From Candidatus Nitrosoglobus terrae (GTDB lineage: Bacteria; Pseudomonadota; Gammaproteobacteria; Nitrosococcales; Nitrosococcaceae): a stretch of DNA of 64,000 nucleotides. The notes beneath the pieces are model-generated. The model saw only the letters and a list, made by a program, of their open reading frames with translations, was not told where the DNA came from and made no database searches. Location of the stretch: positions 1,127,001 through 1,191,000 of the forward strand of contig NZ_AP014836.1 in the NCBI RefSeq assembly GCF_002356115.1, given 5' to 3'. This document shows positions 5,564-8,807 of this stretch, piece by piece (position 1 is the first letter of the stretch; every line of letters begins with the position of its first letter). A program made the position numbers and the translations under genes.

Positions 5564-5886
5564 TGGTGCCCGGGGCCGGAGTCGAACCGGCACGGGGTTA
5601 CCCCCAAGGGATTTTCTTACCAACTACAGCTTTCGCTGCTGCGCTAAAAAACACATTTGTGGTCTGGACTTTACCTTTACCTACCATTCAAGCCAAAAAG
5701 CTAGGATATGGTTTAGGTAGGAGCCGTCAAGTCTCTACACTTTCCTTAAAAAGGCTTAGCTCGGGATTGCCGTTACTCTAAAAGTATTGAGGTTTTCCCG
5801 AATTTGACTCCATTCACACTAGAAGTTTCCTATCTAGGTGCTCAAATTTTTAAGTCCCTTGCGTCTACCTATTTCGCCACCCGGGC
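5564..5886 (-). tRNA. leuZ: tRNA-Leu(UAA), leuZ-like, interrupted by a group I intron
   Basis: The exons are 5886-5852 (35 nt) and 5615-5564 (52 nt), and together give an 87-nt leucine tRNA with encoded CCA. The acceptor stem GCCCGGG pairs with CCCGGGC, followed by A73 and CCA. The D arm has GTAGACGC, there is a long variable arm (TTGGGGGTAACCCCG) and a TTCGACT T loop. Joining GGGACTT to AAAATCCC makes the anticodon loop CTTAAAA, anticodon UAA. The gene is disrupted between U34 and A35 by a 236-nt intron. It is the last gene of a Gly-Cys-Leu tRNA operon that matches the glyW-cysT-leuZ order downstream of pgsA in enterobacteria. Confidence 0.93.
5616..5851 (-). ncRNA. Group I self-splicing intron in tRNA-Leu(UAA)
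   Basis: The 236-nt insert follows U34 (5' splice site after CTT) and ends with the obligatory G before AAAATCC. The group I core elements are visible in order on the minus strand: P-like AATTCGGGAAAACC, Q-like ACGGCAATCCCGAGC, R-like GTGTAGAGACTTGACGG with the guanosine-binding region, and S-like GGTAAAGTCC. A terminal GCAGCGAAAGCTG hairpin (P9-type) lies near the 3' end. The same elements in the same anticodon position are known from cyanobacterial tRNA-Leu(UAA) introns (subgroup IC3), and the intron start AAAAATTTGAGC resembles theirs as I remember it. There is no room for a homing endonuclease ORF. Self-splicing is inferred, not shown. Confidence 0.92.
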
Positions 5887-5911: not shown

Positions 5912-5985
5912 TGGAGGCTGGGGTCGGAATCGAACCGGCGTCCGCGGCTTTGCAGGCCGCTGCATAACCACTCTGCCACCCAGCC
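5912..5985 (-). tRNA. cysT: tRNA-Cys(GCA)
   Basis: A 74-nt cloverleaf with encoded CCA. The acceptor GGCTGGG pairs with CCCAGCC, the anticodon loop is CTGCAAA (anticodon GCA), the T loop is TTCGATT, and the discriminator is U before CCA. It is the middle gene of the tRNA Gly-Cys-Leu operon and is probably co-transcribed from the promoter upstream of tRNA-Gly. Confidence 0.96.
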
Positions 5986-6052: not shown

Positions 6053-6128
<76 letters not shown>

Positions 6129-6374: not shown

Positions 6375-6947
6375 TCAGTGATGATTTGATCTTCCAATTA
6401 ATGCTGGCCAAGCAGTATTGAGATAGATAATCATTGAGCCTAAAGTTAAAGCAACGGCGATATATAGTAATATTACACCAATTTTCCACGTCTGGATTGA
6501 GCCAATAGGATTTTGGTAAAGAAGTAAAGAAATAGCGCTCATTTGAAATGTAGTTTTAAATTTTCCTAACATAGATACTGCAATGCTAGCTCGTAATCCA
6601 ACTTCAGCCATCCATTCGCGAAGAGCCGATACCATAAGCTCACGGCTAACAATCACTATTACCGAAATAGCCATGGATGTAGATGGATGGCTTTGTAAAA
6701 TCAATATTAATGCCACTACTACTATTAATTTATCGGCCACTGGATCAAGAAAAGCACCAAATAGTGAAGTTTGCTGCCAGCGTCTGGCCAAATATCCATC
6801 TAACCAATCGGTAGCCGCTGCCAAAATAAATAATATCGCACAAATCTCATGAGTATGGGGTGCTGGAAAGTAAAAAATAACCGGCAGGATTGGAATAGCA
6901 ATAAGGCGTAATGCCGTTATTAAATTTGGGACTGTATAAATAGGCAT
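6375..6947 (-). CDS. pgsA: Phosphatidylglycerophosphate synthase PgsA
   Basis: A CDP-diacylglycerol--glycerol-3-phosphate 3-phosphatidyltransferase, the committed step to phosphatidylglycerol and cardiolipin, in the inner membrane. At 190 aa it has the usual length. The CDP-alcohol phosphotransferase motif is complete: D47, D50-G51, A54-R55, G64, D68 and D72 in DWLDGYLARR...GAFLDPVADK; the four Asp bind the metal and the CDP moiety. Hydrophobic segments surround the motif on both sides, consistent with about six helices. It lies 45 nt downstream of uvrC in the same direction and upstream of the tRNA operon, a neighbourhood shared with enterobacteria. Confidence 0.96.
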   Translation of the reverse strand: MPIYTVPNLITALRLIAIPILPVIFYFPAPHTHEICAILFILAAATDWLDGYLARRWQQTSLFGAFLDPVADKLIVVVALILILQSHPSTSMAISVIVIVSRELMVSALREWMAEVGLRASIAVSMLGKFKTTFQMSAISLLLYQNPIGSIQTWKIGVILLYIAVALTLGSMIIYLNTAWPALIGRSNHH

Positions 6948-6992: not shown

Positions 6993-8807
6993 CTATTTTC
7001 TATGAAAATAATCGTAAATACGTTGCGCTAATTTTTTATTTATTCCTTTTATTTGAGTTAAATCTTCAATTCTTGCTTTAGATATCTCTTGTAGTCCTCC
7101 TAGCTGGGTTAGTAGCTGTTGGCGACGTTTAGGGCCTAATCCAATAATTCTTTCTAGTAAGGATGTGGTGCGTTTTTTAACGCTGCGTTGACTATGGCCA
7201 GTGATTGCGAAGCGGTGAGCCTCATCACGAATATGCTGTAATAAATGTAATGCTGGAGAATCAGAAGCTCTGATTATTGGGGTTTTATGTCCTTTTAAAA
7301 ATAACATTTCCTCTCCTGCTTTGCGATTATCTCCCTTAGCAATTCCGAGTATAGGTATTTGTGTAATCCCAATTTCCTCCAGTGTAGCTATAGCTTGTGA
7401 TAACTGACCCTTACCGCCATCAATTATAAGAAGATCTGGAAATTTTTCTTTATTTTTTATTAGCCTTTGGTAATGTCGAGTTAAAGCTTGATGTAGAGCT
7501 GCATAGTCATCTCTAGGTGTAATTCCTTCAATATTGAAGCGGCGATAATCAGTGTTGCAAGGGCCTTCTGCAGTAAATACTGCACAGGATGCGATGGTAG
7601 CTTCTCCTTGGTTGTGGCTGATATCAAAGCATTCAAGGCGTCGGGGTAAGGTATTAAGCTGAAGTAATTGTTGAAGGTTTTTAAATCGCTTAATAATAAT
7701 TGTTTTTTTAGTAAGGTGTTGATCTAGTTTTATTTCAGCGTTGATTAAAACCATTTTAACCCATTGAGATTTAGGGTTGCGGGTAGCTTTAAGTAGTTGA
7801 ATATTTCTTCTAGCGTGTTGACTTAGTACTTCAATTAATAGCTTTAAATTATCAGGTTGATGGCTTAGAATAATTAAAGATGGAGGCTCTCGGTTTAAGT
7901 AATACTGAGGGATAAAGGCAGAAATTAATTCCTGTGGAGTGATATTGCCTTGAAATTTAGGTAGAAAAGTTTTATTTCCTAAATGGTGTCCGCCTCGAAT
8001 GCATGAAACCTCGATACAAGCTATCCCTGCTTTAATGACCGCTCCTAATATATCAGCATCTCTAATATCTTCACTATGGCTATATGAGTGTGCGTGAATC
8101 TGTCTTAGATGGGTAATTTTATTTCGATAATCAGCAGCTTGTTCAAAAGCTAAACTTTGAGATGATTTTTCCATTTGTATTATTAATTCATCTATTACCT
8201 GTTTGCTTTCTCCTGATAAAAACATAGCTACATATTGTGTATATTGGTGGTAATTTTCTTTATTAATTAAACCAACGCAGGGAGCAGTGCAGTGTTTGAT
8301 TTGATATTCTAAGCAAGGGCGAGAGCGATTGTAGTAAAAACTATTTGTGCATTGGCGTATAGGAAAAATTTCTTGGAGTAATTTTAAAGTTTTTCTTACT
8401 GCTTTAGTATCTGGGTAAGGACCAAAATAACGACCTAGATCCTTTTTAATTCCTCGATGTAATCCTATACGGGGGAAGGTATCTTTGGAGATAAAAATGT
8501 AAGGGTAAGTTTTATCATCTCTTAATAGTATGTTGTAACGGGGCTGTAAGTTTTTAATTAAATTATTTTCTAAGATTAAAGCCTCTTTTTCAGTTTCAGT
8601 TATAGTAATTTTAATATTATGAATTTGGTTAATTAAAGCACGTGTTTTTGGGGTTAGATTAGATTTTTGGAAATAGCTACTTATGCGTTTTTTTAGATTT
8701 TTAGCTTTGCCAACATAGAGAGTTTTATTCTCCTTACCTACTATTTGGTAAATTCCTGGGTGGGAGGTTAAGTTTTTTAGAAAATTAATGGGATTAAAGT
8801 TTTTCAT
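6993..8807 (-). CDS. uvrC: Excinuclease ABC subunit C (UvrC)
   Basis: The endonuclease subunit of nucleotide excision repair; it makes both incisions around a UvrB-bound lesion. The protein is 604 aa, normal length. An N-terminal GIY-YIG domain (about 14-95: HPGIYQIVG...LYVGKAKNLKKR) performs the 3' incision. A cysteine-containing stretch (CLEYQIKHCTAPCVG) and a UVR motif (around 205-240) contact UvrB. The C-terminal RNase H-like domain (LECFDISHNQGE, DLLIIDGGKGQL) performs the 5' incision. Tandem helix-hairpin-helix motifs lie at the C-terminus (IIGLGPKRRQQLL and IKGINKKLAQRIY). It is the first gene of a uvrC-pgsA unit. Its coding sequence is strongly AT-biased with many Lys/Asn/Ile codons. 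Confidence 0.97.
   Translation of the reverse strand: MKNFNPINFLKNLTSHPGIYQIVGKENKTLYVGKAKNLKKRISSYFQKSNLTPKTRALINQIHNIKITITETEKEALILENNLIKNLQPRYNILLRDDKTYPYIFISKDTFPRIGLHRGIKKDLGRYFGPYPDTKAVRKTLKLLQEIFPIRQCTNSFYYNRSRPCLEYQIKHCTAPCVGLINKENYHQYTQYVAMFLSGESKQVIDELIIQMEKSSQSLAFEQAADYRNKITHLRQIHAHSYSHSEDIRDADILGAVIKAGIACIEVSCIRGGHHLGNKTFLPKFQGNITPQELISAFIPQYYLNREPPSLIILSHQPDNLKLLIEVLSQHARRNIQLLKATRNPKSQWVKMVLINAEIKLDQHLTKKTIIIKRFKNLQQLLQLNTLPRRLECFDISHNQGEATIASCAVFTAEGPCNTDYRRFNIEGITPRDDYAALHQALTRHYQRLIKNKEKFPDLLIIDGGKGQLSQAIATLEEIGITQIPILGIAKGDNRKAGEEMLFLKGHKTPIIRASDSPALHLLQHIRDEAHRFAITGHSQRSVKKRTTSLLERIIGLGPKRRQQLLTQLGGLQEISKARIEDLTQIKGINKKLAQRIYDYFHRK

Follow-up and report, generated by a model that had tools for sequence, protein, structure and literature searches.

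Gene organization at the locus

The 64,000-nucleotide stretch of Candidatus Nitrosoglobus terrae DNA analysed here (the window) carries on its minus strand, at positions 5564-5886, a tRNA-Leu(UAA) gene that is interrupted immediately after the first base of its anticodon. When introns are allowed, ARAGORN places a 236-nt intron between U34 and A35, reproducing exactly the coordinates and the split reported in the initial annotation; a default ARAGORN run overlooks the gene. The 35-nt 5' exon (5852-5886, minus strand; ARAGORN with introns, and the sequence itself) ends in GGGACUU, the last base being U34. The intron (5616-5851, minus strand; RF00028 and covariation) extends from A1 to a terminal G at 5616, which had also been proposed and is confirmed from the sequence, and the 52-nt 3' exon (5564-5615, minus strand; ARAGORN) continues from A35A36 to an encoded CCA. 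The 236-nt intron contains no ORF, its longest stop-free stretch being 54 codons.

Two further tRNA genes identified by ARAGORN, tRNA-Cys(GCA) at 5912-5985 and tRNA-Gly(GCC) at 6053-6128, belong to the same operon, as do two upstream ORFs named by sequence recognition: a pgsA-like gene of 190 aa (6375-6947) and a uvrC-like gene of 604 aa (6993-8807). The resulting order, uvrC, pgsA, tRNA-Gly, tRNA-Cys, tRNA-Leu, all on the minus strand, is also that of E. coli leuZ. The intron therefore resides in the native gene rather than in an imported copy.

The genome (2,018,309 bases in 2 contigs, 99.98% complete) was searched as a whole for tRNA families, and the only other tRNA-Leu genes found were those reading CAA, CAG, GAG, and UAG; a genome-wide search for the pattern of an intact tRNA-Leu(UAA) gene gave no match. 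The split gene is therefore the sole tRNA-Leu(UAA) gene, and from established knowledge of decoding the UUA codons depend on it. The earlier suggestions that the host is a gammaproteobacterium, that it has no second UAA-reading tRNA-Leu, and that this tRNA is essential are thus upheld, the last by the lack of a UAA anticodon in every other tRNA-Leu gene of the genome.

Structure of the intron and the predicted splicing pathway

As had been claimed, the intervening sequence has the properties of a group I intron. It matches RF00028 over the whole model (window positions 5644-5862, minus strand; model positions 1-253) with 63.5 bits, above the gathering threshold of 50 bits, and an E-value of 8.8e-14 in a search of the 64 kb with the full set of 4227 families. 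The fold of the split tRNA is better than that of 100 out of 100 dinucleotide shuffles (z -3.5). When helices P1 to P9 are drawn by hand on the window intron's proteobacterial relatives, 38 aligned introns in all, standard pairs occupy 97.2% of the pair cells and 25 pairs show two-sided changes, whereas in a control in which the partners were slid by 1-3 columns at most 43.8% of the cells are paired.

Within this hand-drawn structure, P1 (5841-5854, minus strand) pairs CUU of the exon and the following AA with UUGAG, and places at the 5' splice site a U.G wobble that is invariant in all 38 introns. P3 (5806-5811 with 5720-5725, spanning 5720-5811 of the minus strand) encloses P4-P6; all of its cells (100%) are paired and one of its pairs changes on both sides. 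P7, the guanosine-binding helix (5730-5735 with 5666-5670, spanning 5666-5735 of the minus strand), is pseudoknotted with P3 and has 99.5% of its cells paired and two two-sided pairs, and the P3-P8 core is backed by covariation. The P6a hairpin (5744-5754, minus strand) has a short loop in the window intron and is the site of an HNH gene in its relatives. P2 and P9b are capped by GAAA loops; the GAAA loops on P2 and P9, along with a small P5, fit subgroup IC3. These features make it very probable, as judged from the sequence, that the 236 nt constitute a group I intron and would be removed by group I splicing.

In the proposed pathway, the pgsA-Gly-Cys-Leu operon would be transcribed first. 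Exogenous guanosine bound in P7 would then attack the U.G pair in P1, and the released U34 would attack on the 3' side of the terminal G, so that U34 and A35 become linked in a normal tRNA. The anatomy of this pathway is seen directly, and its chemistry is taken from what is established for group I introns. Some group I introns are known to depend on host factors (PMC3984707), and the window intron might likewise need a host protein, such as a tyrosyl-tRNA-synthetase-like or chaperone factor, rather than splice autonomously. This is rather unlikely, given that comparable small tRNA introns, those of Anabaena and Azoarcus, reportedly self-splice in vitro, and that the window intron retains the full set of core elements. 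Alternatively, the gene might be dead, a degenerate remnant, with UUA codons read by other means. Nothing among the present results was found to favor this reading; the exons together make up an entire tRNA, CCA included, the catalytic pairs are intact, and the genome is without any other UAA tRNA, so that such a remnant is most improbable. A functional gene interrupted by a group I intron is thus the preferred interpretation.

Distribution in the family, order, and class

All six genomes of the window's family, which represent 3 genera, contain the intron in the same operon, and the intact tRNA-Leu(UAA) pattern is present in none of the six. Within the order, the intact pattern occurs in 42 of 63 genomes, every one of them in the sister family. 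Each of the six family genomes also has one match above the cut-off to the AMO family PF02461, which covers both ammonia and particulate methane monooxygenase.

Among 370 evenly drawn gammaproteobacterial genomes, 54 have RF00028 matches; these lie at the tRNA-Leu(UAA) site in 16 genomes, and many of the others are in tRNA-Ile(CAU). The HNH search described below revealed four additional split tRNA-Leu genes that a strict filter had overlooked, raising the total to at least 20 of 370 gammaproteobacteria (5%). The intact pattern is absent from 19 of these 20 genomes and present in 218 of the 350 others; because it misses about one third of intronless genomes, failing to find it says little by itself about the other carriers. 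One genome (G221, locus L400) has a split tRNA-Leu(UAA) gene accompanied by an HNH gene and, on a different contig, an intact one as well, which may represent either true coexistence or contamination, the assembly having 290 contigs and 4% contamination. In a scan of named genomes, the carriers among the matches listed include Thiohalophilus thiocyanatoxydans, Methylohalomonas lacus, Peristeroidobacter soli, Thioploca, Parabeggiatoa, Thiomargarita, Methylobacter, and others and, outside the class, cyanobacteria, one Acidobacteriota MAG, and one Rhodocyclaceae MAG.

Several other candidates were discarded. C32 of the anticodon stem-loop was rejected as a mark of carriers because GGACTT is also found in intronless relatives; what looked like introns in Novosphingobium, Telmatospirillum, Rickettsiales, and Bacteroidetes proved to be false matches to intact tRNAs with TTGAGC in the variable arm; and the many split 'tRNA-Gln(CTG)' genes called by ARAGORN were reread as tRNA-Ile(CAU) genes interrupted at the Azoarcus-type site.

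Other tRNA introns were observed in the course of this survey. A tRNA-Ile(CAU) group I intron is found in many gammaproteobacteria (L012, L013, L017, L019, L023-L025, L027, L029, L030, L032, L033, and others), and candidate anticodon-loop group I introns lie in other tRNAs (L014, L015, L018, L022, L026, L046, L048, L055, L071, L075), of which the CCT-arginine case is clear; the rest may be tRNAs for His, Thr, Lys, or Met. One genome of the same order (G014; L002, L010, L011) has three strong RF00028 introns at places where no tRNA was called. Plastid-like split tRNA-Leu genes beside plastid-like tRNA sets occur in contigs of Lactobacillus and Clostridia MAGs (L258, L260); these contigs are probably misbinned chloroplast DNA.

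The tRNA-Leu(UAA) intron had been regarded as rare in gammaproteobacteria, a view that does not survive the counts given above or the published tRNA-Leu-TAA group I introns of Beggiatoa sp. BOGUAY and Candidatus Thiomargarita nelsonii (PMC4853749). The latter are in the same tRNA gene and class, and that gene too is overlooked by default annotation; however, their hosts are large sulfur bacteria, and on the tree the introns of the Thiotrichaceae make up a separate subclade. The window intron is, then, a further example of tRNA-Leu(UAA) group I introns already published for gammaproteobacteria. An intron in the same gene and class was also reportedly described by Vepritskiy et al. (2002) in a deep-subsurface gammaproteobacterium. 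The arrangement is widespread through the class and is no curiosity.

Descent of the intron

The insertion site between U34 and A35 had been likened to the classic cyanobacterial and plastid arrangement, and this part of the comparison stands: the window intron and the cyanobacterial/plastid tRNA-Leu(UAA) introns share the gene, the identical site, the P1 scheme, and a short length. This likeness would be expected of a recent horizontal acquisition from cyanobacteria or a plastid source. However, in an unrooted tree of 116 introns, the introns of proteobacteria are set apart from the main cyanobacterial/plastid clade by a long branch and a split supported at 100/99, and the window intron lies outside that clade. 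The proteobacterial side of the tree itself contains two cyanobacterial introns as well as the one from the Acidobacteriota MAG. In a second tree, to which 30 viral introns were added and from which four long or odd rows were dropped, the main cyanobacterial clade is still apart (100/100), and the window intron falls with proteobacterial and some viral introns. A recent cyanobacterial or plastid source is consequently very improbable, and the part of the earlier comparison that pointed to one gives way to a proteobacterial lineage. (The two cyanobacteria with proteobacterial-type introns are Myxacorys almedinensis and an Oscillatoriaceae MAG; L208, L227.) Azoarcus-type tRNA-Ile(CAU) introns, which are common in the same class draw, resemble the window intron in being small group I introns of an anticodon loop, but they occupy another tRNA and another position.

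Support for the deep branches in the rest of the intron tree is weak, and one family member (G058) has an intron whose placement shifts between trees. Nevertheless, a single clade of the six family introns is not rejected (AU p 0.61) and even has a slightly better likelihood. It is likely that the intron has descended vertically within the family: a single acquisition would have preceded the radiation of the Nitrosococcaceae, with vertical inheritance, and no endonuclease, since then.

HNH endonuclease genes in related introns

Nine proteobacterial and acidobacterial introns of 681-712 nt carry in their P6 loop, on the opposite strand, a stop-free frame of about 154 aa; the other eight frames are 64-68% identical to the first. 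Pfam assigns them to HNH_3 and HNH, with one protein above the HNH_3 cut-off, and PHROGs matches them to a phage HNH endonuclease (phrog_10822, 4.7e-49). Further full copies are present in the class draw, and an antisense P6 gene was found in ten related bacterial introns overall. Placed among their viral counterparts, the ten distinct endonucleases from bacterial introns cluster together (SH-aLRT 81). In G274 a decayed HNH copy remains inside the intron, while in G276 (L153/L403) an HNH remnant lies downstream, at a distance of about 50 nt, of a tRNA-Leu(UAA) gene that is intact and has no intron, and is either a former free-standing endonuclease or the trace of intron loss.

An endonuclease gene of its own, the mark of a mobile intron, is present in these related introns and absent from the window intron. 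Genome-wide, the window's genome has distant HNH matches only and no cognate or close HNH gene; for this organism, a homing route would thus be a matter of inferred history.

Phage relatives and a possible homing cycle

Collaborative homing, in which a free-standing endonuclease cuts the insertion site of an intron, has been described in phages (PMC3984707). Viral contigs commonly encode relatives of the HNH proteins, which were examined using the best 80 of 492, chosen by protein similarity alone and blind to tRNAs. For about 60 of 66 distinct endonuclease genes, tRNA-Leu(UAA), whether intact or split, is the closest tRNA lying within 300 nt. Among the loci with at least three tRNAs, tRNA-Leu(UAA) is nearest in 35 of 39, compared with 9.3 expected from a random tRNA of the locus (z 10, a value that overstates independence, as near copies remain among the 39 loci).

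The viral endonuclease genes are seen in three states. Some adjoin an intact tRNA-Leu(UAA), usually at a distance of 49-76 nt; others adjoin a copy that a short intron interrupts; and others again lie within a long intron, mostly in antisense orientation. For the short viral introns, 7 of 9 loci tested gave RF00028 matches above threshold and one more gave a weak match below it; these introns have the U34/A35 site and the terminal G, as in bacteria. Records from a phage collection are in agreement: in LR756511.1, a 595-kb phage, the HNH gene is inside a 700-nt intron of tRNA-Leu(UAA), and in Rhodococcus phage Francesca an HNH gene lies 38 bp after tRNA-Leu(taa); more distant members of the family, such as that of Salmonella phage S124, adjoin other tRNAs. 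Across the viral loci inspected (L306-L385, L386-L390, L392, L393-L395), the phage HNH genes nearly always adjoin or occupy tRNA-Leu(UAA). The viral tRNA arrays also contain a manA RNA motif (L337, 3537-3742) and a permuted tmRNA (L309, 3738-4053).

Because intact, split, and split-with-endonuclease states are all present, these arrangements suggest collaborative homing at tRNA-Leu(UAA). The likeness to the described phage systems lies in an endonuclease found beside the intact gene, beside the split gene, and inside introns of one target gene; the difference is that the described targets are protein genes, whereas the putative target here is a tRNA. A 2014 review states that all phage group I introns until then were in protein genes, despite the many phage tRNA genes (PMC3984707), and a second 2014 review limits bacterial tRNA group I introns to cyanobacteria and the alpha- and betaproteobacteria (PMC4033280). 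A literature search covering few subscription journals yielded no paper on an endonuclease in tRNA-Leu introns or on group I introns in phage tRNAs. Within the scope of that search, what is new around the window intron is the antisense P6 HNH genes of its relatives and the phage association with tRNA-Leu(UAA).

The wider intron lineage may have spread among proteobacteria by homing through the HNH endonuclease associated with tRNA-Leu(UAA), tRNA-rich phages probably being one route; on whether the phage and HNH route was in fact taken, our judgment is evenly divided. More tentatively still, the HNH family could be dedicated to tRNA-Leu(UAA), its cutting of the site driving the exchange of introns between phages and bacteria, with the window intron as the endonuclease-free end state. 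The window intron might then have been kept because the interruption protects the gene from the phage enzyme.

Implications

Bacteria and phages together display an empty gene with the endonuclease beside it, a split gene with the endonuclease beside it, a split gene with the endonuclease inside, a decayed endonuclease, and the intron alone. These are all the stages that a homing cycle acting on a single tRNA gene would be expected to show, and the endonuclease-associated introns of phage tRNAs open the spread of bacterial tRNA introns to direct testing. For the family of the window, a group of probable ammonia oxidisers, the finding means that an essential tRNA gene relies throughout on a predicted ribozyme, and that standard annotation overlooks this gene.
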